Assembly (NCBI RefSeq): GCF_014696715.1
Contig: NZ_JACJQO010000004.1
Location: 1-64,000, forward strand
Direction: 5' to 3'
Length of the DNA stretch: 64,000 nucleotides
DNA from: Pseudanabaena sp. FACHB-2040
GTDB lineage: Bacteria > Cyanobacteriota > Cyanobacteriia > Phormidesmidales > Phormidesmidaceae
The notes below the pieces were generated by a model. It saw only the letters and a list, made by a program, of their open reading frames with translations. It did not search any database and was not told the DNA's origin. The position numbers and the translations under genes are program-made. Position 1 is the stretch's first letter. Each line of letters begins with the position of its first letter. Of the stretch, positions 1,889 to 32,981 are shown piece after piece.

Positions 1889-2257
1889 TGTAGAGTATTC
1901 TGCTGATGTGAGGATTGCTAAAAACTTTCAAACTCTCTTTAGCGTGCTTAGTGTTCAAGGTGCGATCGCACCTCCCCACCCCACCCCACCACCCCACAAA
2001 AAAGCGGGCCTCGCTAAGACACCCACTTCCTGATGTATCAGTTTTTACTTGAAATTGAGGATCAAATCGGCTAGGATTTTTCCCTATAGCTGTGTGAGAG
2101 CAGCTTGTCTTCCCCCGAAAACTTGGTCTGCGGCACTGGCAAATGCTACCAACATCAACCAGCGCCTAACCCGTTGACAGACAACCCCTGTCTCAGGGCT
2201 TTGCCTATTTTAGGTCGCTCTGTTAATTCAGTAATGTCAAGGGCTGCCATTTTTTCG

Positions 2258-2290
2258 GGGATTCCTACCCATTGATTTCAAAGGAATCCC
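2258..2290 (+). promoter_or_regulatory. Hairpin masking the Shine-Dalgarno of the next gene
   Basis: GGGATTCCT (2258-2266) pairs perfectly with AGGAATCCC (2282-2290), with a further G.U pair outside. The right arm contains the AAGGA ribosome binding site (2281-2285) for the ATG at 2295. When folded, the site would be hidden, which suggests translational control by RNA structure. The pairing is seen directly; regulation is inferred. Confidence 0.5.
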
Positions 2291-2294
2291 TGGA

Positions 2295-2573
2295 ATGCTT
2301 CAAATTCAATACTTCCTGCCGACTCCTCTAGGAGAGTTGGCACAGCCTCCTGCGTCTGTAAACGTTACAGTTCAGCCGAGGCGCAGACGGTTGCGGCTAT
2401 ATTTGGTCGGCTCCGAAGCTGATACCCGCAGCGCCATCGATAGCCTGCACATCTTGGGTTATGCCGAGCGCTTTGAGTGGAGCCGAGTCATCGCCATTCC
2501 CGAAAACGGTTTGCTGATTCGCCCCGACCCCGACGACGTGCTGCGCTATCTGCAACGCTATCGTTCGCCCTGA
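2295..2573 (+). CDS. Hypothetical protein, 92 aa
   Basis: No family recognised. The protein has a short hydrophobic N-terminus, a basic run (RRRRLRLYLVG, residues 29-39) that probably forms a strand, and an alternating helix/strand pattern to a C-terminal helix ending LRYLQRYRSP. It has no signal peptide, membrane segment or cysteine motif. An AAGGA site lies 9 bases before the ATG but is buried in a hairpin. The gene stands alone, followed by a GC-rich hairpin. It is likely a cyanobacteria-specific small soluble protein. Confidence 0.65.
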   Translation: MLQIQYFLPTPLGELAQPPASVNVTVQPRRRRLRLYLVGSEADTRSAIDSLHILGYAERFEWSRVIAIPENGLLIRPDPDDVLRYLQRYRSP

Positions 2574-2585
2574 CCTTCCCATTAG

Positions 2586-2618
2586 AGAAACCGGGTTCCT
2601 TCAAGAAACCCGGTTTCT
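2586..2618. terminator. 12-bp hairpin between convergent genes
   Basis: AGAAACCGGGTT (2586-2597) pairs perfectly with AACCCGGTTTCT (2607-2618) around a 9-base loop, 12 bases after the stop of the 92-aa gene. The core AGAAACCGGGTT is a common dispersed cyanobacterial palindrome, so this may be an interspersed repeat acting as a transcription stop for both flanking genes. There is no strong T-run. Confidence 0.5.
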
Positions 2619-2679
2619 AGGGCCTTTGCAATGTTGGGTTTTCGCTTCGCTTAACCCTACCTACACAACGAGAGAAAAC

Positions 2680-3678
2680 CTACCGCACAAACTGCGGCAT
2701 TACCTCAGCTGCCGTAAAGACACCATGCTGCCCCCGACGCTGTAGCTGCACACCCGCCTTGAGGTAGCCAAAAGCAGGGCCACAGACATTCGCCGCCATG
2801 CTAGTCTCATCGCCCAAGGTAAAGGTGTGCGTTGAGATCTTGCCTTCAAAGGTGCGTCCAGTCACCTGTACATTCGTGCTGAGCGGCTTTTTGGGGTTGC
2901 GAGTATCAACAATACCGCCCACCGTCACCTGATCTCGCGAGCAAATCCCGGCCAGCTCCAACATCAGATCGTCGGCGTGCTCCATGTTTTCCAAGTGCAG
3001 CAGGCCGTTGGTCTGGTCTAACAGGGCCTCAACTTCGGCGTCGCTCATCTGCTGCGCTGTCGGCACATTGTACCCTGGCATGTGAGCGATATCTTCGCGA
3101 ATGGTAGCCCGATACGCCTCCCAGTTAGCAATGCCCACGCCAAAGGTGACTTTGACCTGATGGATCTCGGCGTAGCTCTGAGCCGCCAATGCAGCCGCTG
3201 CCGTCAGCAGTCCGGGCGTGGCCCCACAGCCAGTCATGTAAGTGATTCCGGCTTTGCGCAGGTCATCGCCCAGGGTCAGCATTTGCTCCATAGCGCTGGT
3301 GCGCTTTAGGGCATCTACCAGCACACCTTGCCAGCCAGAGCGAATGAACTGCTCCACCACAGAGGCCATAAAGGTATTGGGCAGGTTGGGCAGCGCTAAG
3401 AAATAGCCCTCGACCCCAGCCGCCGACTCAATCAATTCCTGAATGCTCTGCTGGCTCAAGGTGCCGCCGGGCTCTGCATAGCCGACCGACCCCTGCTCCT
3501 GGTAAGCGCGAACGCAGGCTTTGCGGTCAATGCCCGCTGGCGCGTACAGATATCCCTGCTTGTCAGCCACCGCCACCAGCGTCATCTCCTGCTTGGGTGC
3601 CAGTACTTGGGCTGCCGCCTGCCCCAAACCACCAAATCCTAAAACCCCAACGCGAATGGGAGTCCCCTGTGAATGCAT
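2680..3678 (-). CDS. Saccharopine dehydrogenase-like NAD(P) oxidoreductase
   Basis: A 332-aa Rossmann-fold protein. The dinucleotide-binding motif [13 protein letters not shown] lies near residues 9-21, and an ADK-type acidic end of strand 2 follows. The rest ([36 protein letters not shown]) matches cyanobacterial proteins annotated as saccharopine-dehydrogenase-like; the true substrate is not known. ATG 3678 (MHSQGTP) is preferred over 3693 because the Rossmann strand starts soon after it. Its start lies 53 bases beyond the end of the upstream quinone-oxidoreductase-like gene on the same strand, so the two may be co-transcribed. It is probably cytosolic. Confidence 0.8.
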
Positions 3679-3731
3679 GGGTCTTCGCCTCAAAACTGAA
3701 CAAAGTTTATTATCGGGTGTTCTTCCCCCGC

Positions 3732-4730
3732 TTAAGCCATAACTAAAACAACCTTGCCCATGATGCTGCCTGCTTCGAGCTGACGATGGGCTTCAGCAGC
3801 CTGCTCTAGGGGGTAGGTCTGCCCGACATGAATCTTTAACTTGCCGACCTCAAAACAGCGGGCCCCTTGCTTCAAGATTCTGGCCTGCTGCTGACGAGCT
3901 TCGATCAAGTTTTGCAGCAGGGGGGTCAGCATCAGCTCATAGCTAATCCGCAGATTGTGGCTGCGGGCCGTTTTCCAATCGGTTTCTGCGGTGGTCGCAT
4001 GCAGCGTTACCACATCGCCGTAGAGCCGCACGGCTGAAAAAGTTTTAGAGAGGATTGGCTCTCCGATCGTATCAAAGGCGGCATCGATACCCCGGTTGCC
4101 GGTCAGATGCAGCACTGCCTCGACAAAGTCGATGCGGGGATAGTAAATGCAGTGATCGGCTCCCAGCAGGCCGACAAAGTGGGCTTTTTCCTCAGAACTG
4201 ATGGTGGTGCAGACCTCTGAACCGCGCATTTTGGCTAGCTGAATCGCCATGTGGCCGACACCGCCCGCCCCACCGTGAATTAAAATTTGCTGCCCCATTG
4301 CCAGCCGCACCCGCTCATACAGAGCTTCCCAGGCCGTAATAAGCACCAGCGGTACTGCTGCTGCTTCAGTGAAGCTGAGGGAGCGGGGCTTGAGCGCCAC
4401 ACAGCGCTCATCGACTAGCGTGTATTCAGCGTATGTGCCTGGCCGATCGCCTAGGCCACCATTGCAAAAGTAGACCTCGTCTCCCACGCTGAAGTGTCTG
4501 ACTTCTGAGCCAACCGCCTCTACCACTCCCGCGCCATCTAGGCCCAAAATGGCAGGCAGACTGTCGGGGTAGTACGGGCCGCGCTGGCGGATTTTGATAT
4601 CGATGGAATTGACGCTGGCCGCTTTCAGTCGCACCAGCAGATCGCTAGGATGCTGAATTTGAGGCTGGGGCAACTGCTGCACCTGAAGCACTTCCGGTGA
4701 TCCGGTAGCCGTCATCACGACTGCTTTCAT
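3732..4730 (-). CDS. Zinc-independent MDR-family alcohol dehydrogenase/quinone oxidoreductase
   Basis: A 332-aa medium-chain dehydrogenase/reductase. The N-terminal GroES-like domain has [11 protein letters not shown] and the [15 protein letters not shown] signature (about residues 64-78). The cofactor domain has [16 protein letters not shown] (about 150-165), the NADPH-binding signature of the QOR branch. The cysteines that bind structural zinc in classical ADHs are absent. The expected reaction is NADPH-dependent reduction of quinones or enones; the substrate cannot be told. It is the first gene of a probable two-gene unit with the saccharopine-dehydrogenase-like gene. Confidence 0.85.
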
Positions 4731-5015
4731 GCAGCGACTTTCTCCTGTTTATTTTGTCTTGGTTGAGTGACGTTTTTGACTGACGGGTGCTGGATAAATG
4801 GGTGGGCGGTGACTACTCTCCGCTTGAAGCTAGCGCTATTTCGGCGGCATTTCCCAGTGTTATGAACTGTCACACCCTGGATGTCGGCCTCTGTAGCAAG
4901 GCTTACCATGAGGGTGTCTGGTAAAACAGTTTAACCGCTGAAACGCCTGGAATTTGAGTTCTCCACAATGTCAGTCCGCGTTGCCAGATCATTCCGATAG
5001 AGATATCCTCCTACC

Positions 5016-5735
5016 ATGTTACGCAAGTTTGCTTACTCGTCCCTGTTACTTGTTCTGTTAGTTTCGGCTGCCTGTGGTGGGACAAAAGCGCCGAGGGTAA
5101 CTGATTCCTCTGCTTTAGAGGCTGCCCCAGCTTTAGAGGCTGCCCCAACCAAGAGCATGACGGCTCTGGCTAACGAAGCTGCTCTGCAGGATACAGTGGT
5201 GGTGCCTGGCGAGCGGGTAGGGCCGATTAGGCCAACGACGAGCCGAGCTGAGCTAGCAGAGCTATTTGGAGAAGAGCAGCTCAGAGATGAGGAGATCAAC
5301 GTCGGAGAGGGTTTCACAGAGCCGGGAACGGTGGTTGATCTAGGCGAAGATAGGCGCTTGACCGTAGTCTGGACGGATGATAGCCGCTCCAAACCGCTAA
5401 TGGCAAAGGATTTTGGATCTGACTGGAAGACTCCAGAGGGACTGGGACTGGGCACCTCTATGGCAGAACTTAAGCAAGAGCTGGGAGACTTTGAACTCTT
5501 TGGCTTTGGCTGGGATTATGGCGGCAGCATTGTGCTGGAAAACACTGCCCTAGATGAGTATCATGGCGATCTTTTCTTGCGGGTTCGTCCGTCACAAGCG
5601 ACGATTGAACAGCACCGCGAAGCCTATGAGGCTGTTGTTGGAGATGCGGTTTTTGAGTCTACCGATCCGCACATGGAGCCGCTGGAGCCGGTTGTGTATG
5701 ATATGACCGTCTATCTCAATCCTCTGGGCAGTTAA
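5016..5735 (+). CDS. Lipoprotein of unknown function
   Basis: A 239-aa protein with a lipoprotein signal: MLRKFAYSS, a hydrophobic core, then lipobox VSAAC with Cys at about residue 20. A perfect tandem duplication of 18 bases at 5112-5147 yields the repeated ALEAAP linker behind it. The mature part is soluble, acidic and of no recognised family; two similar segments (VGPIRPTTSRAELAELFG and the later GLGLGTSMAELKQELGDF) suggest an internal repeat of a small domain. It is followed 11 bases later by the GST gene, so the two are likely co-transcribed. The location is the cell membrane or outer membrane inner face. Confidence 0.75.
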   Translation: MLRKFAYSSLLLVLLVSAACGGTKAPRVTDSSALEAAPALEAAPTKSMTALANEAALQDTVVVPGERVGPIRPTTSRAELAELFGEEQLRDEEINVGEGFTEPGTVVDLGEDRRLTVVWTDDSRSKPLMAKDFGSDWKTPEGLGLGTSMAELKQELGDFELFGFGWDYGGSIVLENTALDEYHGDLFLRVRPSQATIEQHREAYEAVVGDAVFESTDPHMEPLEPVVYDMTVYLNPLGS

Positions 5736-28193: not shown

Positions 28194-30617
28194 ATGGTTC
28201 AGGAACTCCCCCGTGCCCAGCAGAAGACTTTTCCCGATAGCGCACCTGCAGCCTATCCGGTGTTTTACCGTACCTACAGCCGCCGGGGTGAAGTGACCGA
28301 GGGGGAGCGGGAGACCTGGGAACAGGTGTGCGATCGCACTCTAGCGGGCCTGAGCGAGCTAGGCAACCTCACTGAAGCCGAGCAGCAGCTGATCCGCCGC
28401 ATGCAGCATGAGCTAAAAGCTCTGCCTTCGGGGCGCTGGCTGTGGGTCGGCGGCACCGCTTGGAGCAAACAGCCCGAAAACTTCTCAGGAGCCTACAACT
28501 GCACCAGCACCAACGTCACCGACTGGCGCGCCTTTGGCCTGATGATGGATCTGGCCATGATGGGCTGCGGCACCGGAGCGGTACTAGAGCCCAAGTACAT
28601 CAGTCAGCTGCCTACGATCCGCAATTCCCTAAAGGTATCGCTGCAGGGCGGGCTCGGCGAAACGCCAGCAGGCCAGCGCAAGGAAATCACTAAGATCAGC
28701 GTTGACGGTAACCAGGTTTTGATTCGCGTTGGCGACAGCCGCCAGGGCTGGGTACAGTCTTACCAGGGGCTGCTGGAGCTGTGCAGCGATGAGCGATTTA
28801 CCGGAGAAGTCGAAGTCACCGTTGATCTCAGTGACGTGCGCCCCGCTGGAGAAAAGCTAAAAGGCTTTGGCGGCATGGCCAACCCCATCCGCCTGCCGGG
28901 GCTTTACGAGCGCTGCGCCAACATTCTCAACAAAGCCGTAGGCCGCCAGCTCAACTCCGTCGAGTGCTGCCTGCTAATTGACGAAGCTGCCGCCTGCGTT
29001 GTGGCCGGAAACATTCGTCGCTGCCTGCCTGAAGATGCCTTGGTGCACACTACTCACGGATTGGTTCCGATCAAAGATGTTCAGATTGGAGATTGGGTAC
29101 AGACGCCTATTGGATTCCGTCGAGTGGTCAACAAGTTTGATCAGGGTATCCAAGATGTGTACGAGATTGAGACCAACGCCACGCTGCCCAGAGCCACGCT
29201 GAATCACCGTATGGCAGTGCTGGCCGATGCGAAAGGACAAATTGCTTGGAAGCGCGTCGGCGAGCTGGCAGTGGGTGATCGCCTGCTGCACAGCACCCAG
29301 GTTCTTCCTGGAACGATCACCACGCTACCTGCTGACTTTACAGCAGAGCGGCCTGACCAAAGCCGCACCGCTAAAGGCTTGACCATCCCTGCCTTGACTG
29401 CCGATGTGGCTTGGTTAATTGGCTACACTCACGGAGACGGGTATGTCGCTCTAGGACGCAACAAGCACGGCAAGCCCTATGGCCGCGTCGAGTGGGCGAT
29501 GAACAGTATGGATACTGCTGTAACTGCTCGACTACAGCAGCAGCTAGACCGAGTGTTGGCTCTGTTTGGCTTGACTGCAACCCACGGTACGGTGAATGGA
29601 GAGAACACAGCTAAATCAGTGTGTTCCTCGATTAGGCTAGCTGAGTATTTCTACCGCCACATCAAACAGCCGAGCCAGCCTCTGACAGTACCTTCTTTTA
29701 TTCTGCAAGGCTCAGTAGAGGTTCGGGCAGCATATCTGGCGGGACTGGTGGATAGCGATGGTGCGGTGAACAACAGGCCGCCTCATCTGGTAACGACTGT
29801 CTATCCCACCTTTGCTCGGCAGGTCAGTGCGGTACTCTCCAGCCTAGGAGTTGCTGGAAGACTCCTGCTAGTGCGCCCTCAAATAGAGACCTGGCGGGTT
29901 AAATACAACGTCACTCTGCCTGCTCTCAAGGGCCAGTACAACAGCCTGATTGCTCCTTACTCGGTAAAAGGAGAGCTGCGCCAAGGGCTGAAGATGCGCG
30001 GCTTTACCGTGCCCGGCACCCTCATGCGCGAGGTCTACGCCTACAGCGAAATGCGGGAAATGGGCTTCGAGGGTTCGCGTCAGGTAGATGCCAACTACGA
30101 GCGCTACCGGGCCGAATCAGACATTAACCTAGATATTCCAGTCACCTTTAAGGGAACTGGCAGCTATAACTGTATCCAGACTTACGACATAGAGGTAGAC
30201 GAAGCTCACTGCTTCTACTGTGATGGGTACCTAACCCATAACAGTGCAGGCATGCGTCAGTTCGATAGCAATGATGAACTGGCGGCCTCGGCTAAGGACA
30301 ACCTTTGGCAGCAGGACGAAAGTGGCAACTGGCGAATCGACCCCGAGCGTGATGTGCTGCGGATGGCCAACCACACCCGTGTCGTCCATCAAAAGCTCTC
30401 CCTAGAGGAAGTTACCGATGCAGTTCGGAAACAATTTTATTCCGGTGAAGGAGCGGTGCAGTGGGCCGGTGAAGCCATTGCCCGTTCTAATGCAGATTTG
30501 CTCAACAGTCGTGAGAAAAAGGAGGTGTTTTTAAGGCTGTACCGTGAGTCCGAAGAAAAAGCTAGAGCCTATCTTAAAGAGCTTCTGATTGAGCAAAACA
30601 ATTCTTCTGGCTCCTAA
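28194..30617 (+). CDS. nrdJ: Class II ribonucleotide reductase NrdJ, N-terminal part, with in-frame intein
   Basis: An 807-aa precursor: N-extein 276 aa, intein 407 aa, C-extein 124 aa. Extein motifs match adenosylcobalamin-dependent ribonucleoside-triphosphate reductase: YNCTSTNV (Cys103, probable partner of the active-site disulfide), MMGCGTG, NSVECCLLIDEAAACVVAGNIRR, then SAGMRQFDS after the intein. ATG 28194 has GAGGG about 10 bases upstream. The frame closes with TAA at 30615-30617 after LLIEQNNSSGS, before the catalytic NPCGE motif, so this product alone cannot be active. The rest of the enzyme is encoded from 30655 in another frame. It is either a naturally split enzyme or a decayed gene. 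Confidence 0.88.
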   Translation: MVQELPRAQQKTFPDSAPAAYPVFYRTYSRRGEVTEGERETWEQVCDRTLAGLSELGNLTEAEQQLIRRMQHELKALPSGRWLWVGGTAWSKQPENFSGAYNCTSTNVTDWRAFGLMMDLAMMGCGTGAVLEPKYISQLPTIRNSLKVSLQGGLGETPAGQRKEITKISVDGNQVLIRVGDSRQGWVQSYQGLLELCSDERFTGEVEVTVDLSDVRPAGEKLKGFGGMANPIRLPGLYERCANILNKAVGRQLNSVECCLLIDEAAACVVAGNIRRCLPEDALVHTTHGLVPIKDVQIGDWVQTPIGFRRVVNKFDQGIQDVYEIETNATLPRATLNHRMAVLADAKGQIAWKRVGELAVGDRLLHSTQVLPGTITTLPADFTAERPDQSRTAKGLTIPALTADVAWLIGYTHGDGYVALGRNKHGKPYGRVEWAMNSMDTAVTARLQQQLDRVLALFGLTATHGTVNGENTAKSVCSSIRLAEYFYRHIKQPSQPLTVPSFILQGSVEVRAAYLAGLVDSDGAVNNRPPHLVTTVYPTFARQVSAVLSSLGVAGRLLLVRPQIETWRVKYNVTLPALKGQYNSLIAPYSVKGELRQGLKMRGFTVPGTLMREVYAYSEMREMGFEGSRQVDANYERYRAESDINLDIPVTFKGTGSYNCIQTYDIEVDEAHCFYCDGYLTHNSAGMRQFDSNDELAASAKDNLWQQDESGNWRIDPERDVLRMANHTRVVHQKLSLEEVTDAVRKQFYSGEGAVQWAGEAIARSNADLLNSREKKEVFLRLYRESEEKARAYLKELLIEQNNSSGS
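29022..30242 (+). other. Intein with LAGLIDADG homing endonuclease domain
   Basis: A 407-aa intein between Arg276 and Ser of the host sequence (NIRR / SAGM). It starts with Cys in block A CLPEDALVHT; block B is ATLNHRMAV with the His; LAGLIDADG helices are WLIGYTHGDGYV and YLAGLVDSDGAV, both with their acidic residue; block F is YDIEVDEAHCFYCDG; block G ends YLTHN followed by Ser (+1). All splicing residues (Cys1, block B His, penultimate His, last Asn, Ser+1) are present, so protein splicing and endonuclease activity both look intact. RNR genes are a known favoured intein site. Confidence 0.92.
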
Positions 30618-30654
30618 GTTTAGGATTTAAGCGAGATTGAATGGGAGATGGTTA
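30618..30654 (+). promoter_or_regulatory. nrdJ: Spacer with ribosome binding site between the two nrdJ halves
   Basis: The 37 bases between the TAA of the first half and ATG 30655 contain GGGAG (30643-30647), 7 bases from that ATG, an ideal Shine-Dalgarno. All three frames are closed across 30615-30660 (TAA 30615, TAG 30621, TAA 30628 and others), so the two halves cannot be joined by a single frameshift. A TCCTAAgtTTAGGA near-palindrome spans the stop. Confidence 0.6.
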
Positions 30655-30729
30655 ATGGCAATTAGCATGGAAAGCATTGAACTAGAACTAGATAGGAGGA
30701 TGTCCCGCTACGGACTCAATCCGTGTGGT
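30655..30729 (+). CDS. nrdJ: NrdJ C-terminal part, 5' exon
   Basis: Twenty-five codons opening with MAISMESIELEL and ending RYGLNPCG, the first part of the NrdJ catalytic motif NPCGE whose Cys carries the thiyl radical. The reading frame differs from the intein-containing half. The exon ends with the GGT codon at 30729, exactly at the predicted group I 5' splice site, and joins GAA at 31911 to restore NPCG-EILGSDF. The spliced product from here would be 381 aa. The start is supported by GGGAG 7 bases upstream. If the gene is decayed rather than split, this is simply exon sequence. Confidence 0.75.
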
Positions 30730-31910
30730 GAGTGATTTTGCCTCACGTAAAAAACTCGGCAAAAACGGGGAAGGCTGAGACGCTAATCCCGTGGTAACTA
30801 GGAGAAGTAATATTCCCTAGCACCGTACAGAGTAGAGGATGAAACTTTAACTTGAAATGAGCCAATAGGTTCAAATATTTTAGTTAAAGAATATAACTCC
30901 TCCATGAGTGCCGAGCTATTAATGAATGGAAGAACCTACTGCGGCCATTACAAGGGGCATTATCTCAAGTCTACTTTGGAGTATATTTACGCTCGTTACC
31001 TCGATCATGTAGGAATCACCTGGGAATATGAAGTTCAAACTTTTGTGCTATCTACCGGCGGTTCTTACAAGCCCGACTTCCGTTTGAGCAATGGCTCTTA
31101 TGTTGAGATAAAGGGTGGCTTTAACTACGACACTGATTTGCCTCGCATTAGAACCTTTGAAGCAGACTATGGAACCAGCGTAAAGATTATTCAAGAGAAG
31201 GAACTGAGAAAGCTAATTCGTTCGACGCCATTCGTGTTTGAGCACCTCAAGCAGGAATGGAAGCAGACAGCCAACGGTCTTGGAATGGACACGTCAGGAG
31301 AAAACAATCCCCGATATGGGGTTGCTCAATCGGAGATAACCCGTTCCAAAATTGCCGAAAAGGCTAAAGCACGGCTGCAAGATCCTGAATATCGAAAGCG
31401 ATGGGAGGAGGCTAGGAGCAGAAGTGAAAAGGTGCAGCAACAGACCGAACGTCTGAAGCAATACAACCTCCAACGCTACAGGCAGGTCTTTGTGATCTGT
31501 CAATACTGTGGCCAAGAGTTTGAGGCTCTCTATCGCAAGAGTAACCCGCCTCAATATTGTTCTCGAAAGTGTTCTGTCAGCTTTGTTCGCGGAAAAACTT
31601 CTCCCAAATCCTCTGAAGGTATTCAAGAATTGGCTCTAGCATTTGCTAGAGCAAACTCTGAAGATATTATTTCCTGTAAGCTAAACGCCATTAAACCTGT
31701 CCTCAAACCTTTTTATGAGGAGGTTTACAGGCAATACGGTATTCAAGACGAACGAACGCTCAGCAAAGCCCTCTTAGGTGTCCAAGCTAGTCGCAAAGAG
31801 ATACTCTATTACTTCCGCTCACTGGTAGAAAATGTACTCGGAACTACAGGGAATTGAACCTGTAGAGCTAGAGGATAAAGAGCCTCTAGGGTAACAAAAA
31901 AAAATAACTG
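30730..31910 (+). mobile_element. Group I intron in nrdJ with internal endonuclease gene
   Basis: 1181 nt. P1: exon CGTGTGGT (30722-30729) pairs with intron GCCTCACG (30740-30747), one U.U mismatch, with the obligatory U.G pair at the splice site. P10: intron GATTTT (30734-30739) pairs with the 3' exon GAAATT (31911-31916). Core: P4 ACGGG/CCCGT (30765-30769, 30788-30792); P6 GGT..ACC with CTAGG/CCTAG; P7 GAGT (30830-30833)/ACTC (30896-30899); P8 CTTTAACT/AGTTAAAG (30845-30852, 30882-30889). The last nucleotide is G (31910). A P9-type hairpin CTAGAGG/CCTCTAG lies at 31868-31889. P3 was not convincingly placed. Excision joins exon codons in frame. Confidence 0.88.
30904..31857 (+). CDS. PD-(D/E)XK homing endonuclease of the group I intron
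   Basis: A 317-aa protein inside the intron, starting four bases after the P7 strand. Catalytic motif: Glu26 in LKSTLEYIYARYL, then Pro57-Asp58 (YKPDF) and Glu68-x-Lys70 (VEIKG), the PD-(D/E)XK nuclease core seen in intron endonucleases such as I-SspI of Synechocystis. A SGENNPRYG-type segment followed by a basic helix resembles NUMOD3 DNA-binding modules. A zinc finger (CQYC ... YCSRKC, about residues 199-224) and a C-terminal helical domain follow. It is likely to cut intronless nrdJ at the catalytic-site codons and drive intron homing. It looks intact; no clear ribosome binding site. Confidence 0.85.
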   Translation: MSAELLMNGRTYCGHYKGHYLKSTLEYIYARYLDHVGITWEYEVQTFVLSTGGSYKPDFRLSNGSYVEIKGGFNYDTDLPRIRTFEADYGTSVKIIQEKELRKLIRSTPFVFEHLKQEWKQTANGLGMDTSGENNPRYGVAQSEITRSKIAEKAKARLQDPEYRKRWEEARSRSEKVQQQTERLKQYNLQRYRQVFVICQYCGQEFEALYRKSNPPQYCSRKCSVSFVRGKTSPKSSEGIQELALAFARANSEDIISCKLNAIKPVLKPFYEEVYRQYGIQDERTLSKALLGVQASRKEILYYFRSLVENVLGTTGN

Positions 31911-32981
31911 GAAATTCTTGGCTCCGACTTTCACTGTAATTTAGCTGAGGTTCATCTCAACCAAATTGATCCTTCTAATGAGCAAGAGCAGGAGGACGCT
32001 TTCACAGCTGGTGCTCTCTCGGTTGCAGGATTGCTGAACCACCAGTTCAACGAACCACGCTATCAGCAATCTCGGCTGGAAGACCCAATTGTTGGGGTGT
32101 CTTTCACTGGACTGTTCGACTTCTTTGTCCATGCCTTTGGAGTAGATTGGCTGAACTGGTGGGAAACGGGTCGGCCCGACACCATGCAGGGGCTTCAGTT
32201 CAAGCAGAAGGAGCGGGAGTATCTGACCCGCTGGCGCGAGACTGTGCATCGGGTGGTGTGGGACTATTGCGATCGCAACGGCCTCAAGCGCCCCAACCGC
32301 TGCACCACCGTTCAGCCTGCGGGTACTAAGTCGCTGCTCAGTGGGGCTAGCCCTGGCTGGCACCCGCCCAAGGCTCAGCGCTTTATCCGCCGCATTACCT
32401 TCCGCAAGAATGATCCGGTGGCGCTGGCCTGCATTGACTATGGCTATGCGGTAGTGCCCTCACAATCTGACAAAGACGAAACCGGCAACCTGCTGAGCGA
32501 TCCCTTTGATCCGCGCTGCACCGAGTGGCTGGTGGAGTTGCCTGTAGAGGTGTCTTGGGCCAACCTGCCGGGAGCCGATGCGATCGCAATCGAAAAGTTC
32601 TCGGCCCTAGCCCAGTTCGACTTCTATATGCAGGTGCAGAAGCACTACACTACCCACAACACCTCAGCCACCATCGAGCTGCGGGAGCCGGAGATCGAAG
32701 CGCTGAGCCAGCGTATCTACGATGCCATCCAAAACGATGAGGGCTATATCTCGGCGGCACTGCTGGCTCGGTTTGACGACCTGCAAACCTTCCCGCGTCT
32801 GCCCTTTGAGCCAATCGATAAGGCAACCTATGCGGCCCTAGTTGCCCAAGTGGAACAGCGGCGGCGCACCGCAGAATTCCATACGGCCTTGGCTCGTTAT
32901 GATGCTGGGGAACTGATGGAGGCAGGCCCAGCAGGCTGTGACTCAGACAAGTGTATGCTGCCCGAGAAAAAACCAGAATAA
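31911..32981 (+). CDS. nrdJ: NrdJ C-terminal part, 3' exon
   Basis: 356 codons continuing NPCG with EILGSDFHCNLAEVHL. Conserved blocks are AFTAGALSVAGLLNHQF, PIVGVSFTGLFDFF, CTTVQPAGTKSLLSGASPGWHPP and NTSATIEL. The C-terminus carries the redox pair CDSDKC that re-reduces the active site. The exon has no start of its own; it begins in the middle of the catalytic loop and needs intron removal. Together with 28194-30617 (less the intein) and 30655-30729 it makes about 780 residues, close to the single-chain NrdJ length of roughly 740-780. The enzyme makes deoxyribonucleotides using adenosylcobalamin. Confidence 0.9.
   Translation, partial: EILGSDFHCNLAEVHLNQIDPSNEQEQEDAFTAGALSVAGLLNHQFNEPRYQQSRLEDPIVGVSFTGLFDFFVHAFGVDWLNWWETGRPDTMQGLQFKQKEREYLTRWRETVHRVVWDYCDRNGLKRPNRCTTVQPAGTKSLLSGASPGWHPPKAQRFIRRITFRKNDPVALACIDYGYAVVPSQSDKDETGNLLSDPFDPRCTEWLVELPVEVSWANLPGADAIAIEKFSALAQFDFYMQVQKHYTTHNTSATIELREPEIEALSQRIYDAIQNDEGYISAALLARFDDLQTFPRLPFEPIDKATYAALVAQVEQRRRTAEFHTALARYDAGELMEAGPAGCDSDKCMLPEKKPE

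Follow-up and report, generated by a model that had tools for sequence, protein, structure and literature searches.

A class II ribonucleotide reductase gene cut ahead of its catalytic cysteine in cyanobacteria, and the apparent spread of the cut beside a mobile intron

The class II ribonucleotide reductase (RNR) of Pseudomonas and other Proteobacteria is made from two genes, encoding NrdJa (734 aa) and NrdJb (229 aa), both of which are required (PMC4520616, PMC5704485, PMC9669993). This split has been stated to be the only one in a non-viral organism (PMC4520616). In phage Aeh1, an RNR catalytic subunit of class I is divided at a functionally critical site into nrdA-a and nrdA-b by the homing endonuclease mobE, whose gene is inserted at the break (PMC2988022, PMC3653736). 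In Thermus phage phiYS40, nrdJ-a and nrdJ-b follow one another as reading frames, with a short gap between them (PMC3653736). Among cyanobacteria, Nostoc punctiforme is reported to have a group I intron in its B12-RNR gene (Meng et al. 2007, cited in PMC12702839); a two-chain enzyme is not described in that work as it is cited there. For Nostoc living as lichen symbionts, one unexplained sentence of PMC5987646 speaks of 'split ribonucleotide reductase enzymes'. Apart from it, a literature search gave no description of the cyanobacterial split reported here.

The nrdJ locus was analysed in a stretch of 64,000 nt from Pseudanabaena sp. FACHB-2040 (the window). It consists of the following features (a slash marks an insertion point).

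28194-30617, + strand: N-terminal half (N-half) of NrdJ, closed by a stop of its own; 807 aa as translated and 400 aa once the intein is spliced out; tail KARAYLKELLIEQNNSSGS followed by the stop
29022-30242, + strand: intein with a LAGLIDADG endonuclease domain, within the N-half; 407 aa; NIRR/C...HN/SAGM; Pfam PF14528, PF05204
30618-30654, + strand: gap of 37 nt separating both coding units; GGGAG at 30643-30647
30655-30729, + strand: exon 1 of the C-terminal half (C-half), 25 codons, MAISMESIELELDRRMSRYGLNPCG; the catalytic Cys (in NPCGE) is encoded here; every split gene conserves this exon
30730-31910, + strand: group-I-like intron of 1181 nt, directly 3' of NPCG, interrupting the C-half
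30904-31857, + strand: intron-encoded endonuclease, T7-endonuclease-I-like PD-(D/E)XK type; 317 aa
31911-32981, + strand: C-half exon 2, 356 codons and stop; encodes what remains of the catalytic barrel, and CDSDKC, the redox Cys pair at the C-terminus

The N-half frame is open from 28194 to the TAA at 30615-30617. Its exteins (28194-29021 and 30243-30614, 276 + 124 aa) are separated by the intein, the borders of which were set from the extein alignment, and its tail KARAYLKELLIEQNNSSGS with the stop is common to other split genes. The +1 frame is closed by a stop at 30628-30630, and frame 0 by those at 30615 and 30621. The coordinates given in the preliminary description, from 28194 through the TAA to the ATG at 30655 and the end at 32981, were correct. 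GGGAG lies exactly 7 nt upstream of that ATG, and a Shine-Dalgarno-like purine run occupies the equivalent relative position in most linked splits. Exon 2 reads from EILGSDFHC to the stop at 32979-32981 and is 86% identical to that of the split relative G040. With the intron removed, the C-half has 381 residues. The exteins thus sum to 781 aa (400 + 381), compared with ~767-775 aa in fused cyanobacterial NrdJ, which bears out the earlier view that almost nothing is missing at the split.

The cut lies in a variable stretch just 5' of the finger loop, inside the catalytic barrel, and the catalytic Cys is 24 residues into the C-half. An AlphaFold model of a fused homologue was poor (pLDDT 58); it hints at a break between helices 383-390 and 396-404. 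Around this site, ~50 residues are absent from the fused NrdJ of many family f1 relatives of the window's organism (e.g., L043, L096-L101), so the segment is dispensable in some lineages. It may be noted that this variable stretch is also frameshifted, close to a run of G, in the nrdJ of G053 (L034, ~3840-4000); the gene lacks the shared split junction, and the frameshift is either an independent break or a sequencing error.

The locus resembles NrdJa/NrdJb in that a class II RNR is made of two chains from two genes. However, in Proteobacteria the complete catalytic barrel, with the active site, belongs to NrdJa, NrdJb being the C-terminal Cys-rich domain only, whereas the cyanobacterial enzyme is of the monomeric type and is cut inside the barrel, before the catalytic Cys. 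It is hence not an NrdJa/NrdJb pair as defined in PMC4520616, and the preliminary description was right both in placing a real split just ahead of the catalytic loop and in setting it apart from the Pseudomonas case. With Aeh1 it shares an RNR catalytic subunit in two genes, a functionally critical site and a link to a homing endonuclease. Unlike Aeh1, no endonuclease gene is found at the break, where there are only the 37 nt of the gap; the endonuclease is in the downstream intron, ~113 nt away, and the gene is a cellular class II one, split in 23 genomes. The likeness to phiYS40, a phage case, is one of gene layout (nrdJ in consecutive frames with a short gap).

The enzyme was placed by Pfam and PDB searches as a monomeric class II NrdJ of the Lactobacillus leichmannii type. 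The RTPR of L. leichmannii (1L1L) was the sole PDB match (E 1e-29), with similar stretches in both halves, and the PF21995 insertion domain was detected in the N-half. The catalytic motif, the partner Cys and the C-terminal Cys pair are all present, GAYNCTS being in the N-half and NPCGE, FHCNL and CDSDKC in the C-half. RNR chemistry needs the active-site Cys residues together. As they are divided over two chains, neither chain is expected to work alone, and as the catalytic Cys is only 24 residues into the C-half, the chains would have to assemble.

The window's genome gave no match to any of the RNR families of class I (large or small subunit) or class III. PF02867 was also without a match to this NrdJ type, and NrdJ was therefore counted by a separate genome search, which found one N-half and no second NrdJ. 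Hence, neither the nrdAB nor the second nrdJ for which the preliminary description had left room was detected. Each split genome likewise gave one N-half match, and no intact nrdJ was found alongside the split. For pairs of split genes, dN/dS was 0.02-0.10 in the N-half segments and 0.01-0.06 in the C-half segments, the same as for fused pairs; both halves are under strong purifying selection. We infer that the two chains form a working adenosylcobalamin-dependent class II RNR of the monomeric type, in which they would associate non-covalently into one active site. To cut the catalytic barrel of a sole RNR beside the radical Cys is a severe change, and since many cyanobacteria tolerate it, one can test directly how two chains assemble the active site of an RNR.

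First 77 relatives and next 390 genomes from the class were searched, after which came C-half searches and a scan of named genomes. Six cyanobacterial families were found to have this split, in at least 23 genomes, as listed below.

Window's family (3 genomes): G000, G040, G041
Pseudanabaena-type (4 genomes): G213, G242, G266, G172
Family f25 (2 genomes): G084, G097
Chamaesiphon (3 genomes): L118, L120, L121
Family f16, genus g29 (7 genomes): G061, G079, G092, G105, G125, G136, G145 (for G145 the C-half alone was found)
Further genomes: G096, G200, G328, G340

In the 390-genome draw, a split N-half was present in 19 of the 321 genomes with a match by our own reading of the matches, that is, roughly 6% of the sampled cyanobacterial nrdJ genes are split. 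The N-half ends in ...AKxYLRxLL[IL]x... before its stop, and the C-half starts with M...[IL]ELELEHRMSRYGLNPCG. Since genomes that were sequenced independently share the position of both the stop and the separate ATG, the pattern is due neither to chance nor to sequence error. Across the linked splits the gap between the halves ranges from -20 to +210 nt, the C-half start is usually preceded by a Shine-Dalgarno-like site, and the N-terminal extensions of the C-half differ. In g29 the halves are unlinked. They are ~84 kb apart in G061 and ~0.7 Mb apart on the single-contig chromosomes of G079 and, if the contig is circular, of G105; in others of the genus they are on different contigs. The nrdJ of G115, from the sister genus of g29, is fused. 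The g29 C-halves L089, L090, L092, L093 and L094 carry an intein at NP/C, just 5' of the catalytic Cys and near the intron site of the other splits, so that different selfish elements crowd one catalytic motif.

The intron has features of a group I intron: a 5' exon ending in U, a P1 in which the exon sequence GUGUGGU pairs with GCCUCAC, with a U.G at the splice site, and a terminal G. Its helices covary, 27 of the 51 consensus pairs showing double-sided changes among related introns. Rfam gave no match for the intron; for RF00028 there was none at E<=1 in the window or in L033. The endonuclease matched Pfam PF05367 weakly and PDB 1m0d/1fzr at E 3e-4 to 1e-3; related proteins are encoded by the introns of other splits and by that of the viral contig L198. 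An intron directly follows NPCG in all 16 linked splits examined, compared with ~20 of ~72 fused genes in one scan (Fisher 5e-8), and in Pseudanabaena alone in 4/4 splits vs 1 of ~30 fused genes (p 1e-4); in these comparisons the species are phylogenetically non-independent, and the numbers for fused genes come from inspection by eye. No intron is present in the g29 splits, the unlinked ones. Intron relationships and the split do not correspond exactly, for G084 and G097 share the junction and carry different intron types, and the intron is also found in fused genes; hence, intron turnover must have occurred.

When trees were made from the N-terminal 276 and the C-terminal 356 residues, the split genes fell within their own families, interleaved with fused ones, and a single split clade was rejected for this rest of the gene (delta lnL 1258). 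In the tree of the junction (~53 aa), all splits formed one clade, and a grouping by families was rejected (delta lnL 105, AU p=6e-41). These trees indicate a single origin of the junction, and the earlier suggestion of an independent split in the window's organism has to be given up. G213 is 96% identical to the fused G208 in the N-terminal segment and 98% in the C-terminal segment, vs 24% in the tail; for G084 and the fused G070 the values are 99%, 98% and 43%. Compared with the nearest fused gene in Pseudanabaena and Chamaesiphon, nucleotide identity is ~90% outside, and ~45-75% inside, a region from -150 to +20-50 nt of the intron site. No such drop was seen upstream of the intron site in a fused-fused control. 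In the recipients, a donor-like exon tract flanks the intron, as in co-conversion. These patterns point firmly to a local exchange around the intron site, the profile of identity having the shape expected where gene conversion has acted at a homing site. Intron homing is known to co-convert the flanking exon sequence (PMC2988022, PMC3984707). As the junction differs sharply from that of fused relatives and is part of a short imported tract around an intron still present, it is not the scar of a lost intron or intein that had been proposed.

The viral contig L198 (IMG/VR, 146.5 kb) has at 1930-5460 a fused nrdJ with an intron of the window's type, in which a T7-endonuclease-I-like ORF is 42% identical to the window's endonuclease. 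Its junction is the most similar one, close to those of the splits, and in a FastTree of the junction the splits fell among the viral sequences, with weak support over ~53 residues. In a set of 80 viral loci, none had a split nrdJ. A scan of viral contigs with the endonuclease protein gave no match, although L198 encodes a relative, and the phage collection searched with the endonuclease gave one marginal match. A viral nrdJ like that of L198 is a possible vehicle for the intron and its flanks.

We consider it probable that the enzyme is a two-chain RNR, and that a single fission has spread by intron-linked co-conversion into several families. The N-half, with its intein removed, and the C-half, with its intron spliced, would be translated separately and then associate. 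The fission of nrdJ would have arisen once. Several cyanobacterial families would then have received the junction in their own nrdJ within a gene-conversion tract of ~200 nt centred on NPCG/E, most likely because the group-I-like intron at that site carried it along when homing. Between species, the cut appears to have travelled as a short DNA piece beside a mobile intron. Homing may have been the driver, and phages carrying nrdJ with this intron are candidate carriers. The chances seem even that this amounts to an infectious gene fission, in which a homing intron, possibly delivered with a phage nrdJ, brings a stop, a ribosome site and a start in its co-converted exon flank, so that in every host it enters an essential enzyme of one chain becomes one of two chains. 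It would be a natural case of gene fission, a change of protein architecture, moved horizontally as a short DNA tract, and would connect selfish introns with the origin of multi-subunit enzymes.

The split may be real, functional and of single origin, and yet have spread by ordinary homologous recombination or by selection for the junction, the intron being a bystander that favours the same conserved site. The different intron types of close split relatives, the introns common at this site in fused genes and the intron-less g29 splits speak for this account; we regard it as doubtful, given the intron in 16/16 linked splits, the contrast being strongest within one genus, and the centring of the divergent tract on the intron site. 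Several independent fissions, with junctions converging under similar constraints on a free C-terminus and a new N-terminus, would suit the scatter of the splits over families and the varying gaps and C-half extensions. They are improbable, however, in view of the derived residues shared across the tail and exon 1, the strong rejection of family-wise origins and the sharp tract boundary at the nucleotide level.

Readings in which a single chain or no enzyme is made fare worse still. Ribosome bypassing has a precedent in T4 gene 60, and the matching TCC codons noticed earlier are present at 30612 and 30703. Their proposed role did not hold: the conserved IELELDRRM segment would be lost by bypassing, the ATG of the C-half has a Shine-Dalgarno-like site ahead of it, and the unlinked g29 halves and variable gaps rule out bypassing, frameshifting and a short hidden intron, so that a programmed single chain is very improbable. 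A decaying pseudogene or an assembly error, which the broken frame alone would suggest, is the least credible reading of all. Decay, which the preliminary description kept as a lesser option, is contradicted by the low dN/dS of the split pairs and by the genome, in which no other RNR was found. Misassembly, kept likewise, is countered by the unlinked halves and by the same structure in many assemblies, some of them single-contig chromosomes.

Two minor observations concern the introns at NPCG/E. The intron of L161 (3197-3457), at the same site, matched RF00028 with 75 bits, and RF00028-type introns are also present there in the fused nrdJ of G190 (L113) and in L181, the exon codons being altered to CCTTGCGGT; two intron lineages therefore use one site. 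In the window's intron (30730-30736) and nearly all homologous introns, an in-frame stop occurs only a few codons past the 5' splice site; ribosomes would thereby be kept from entering the intron core.
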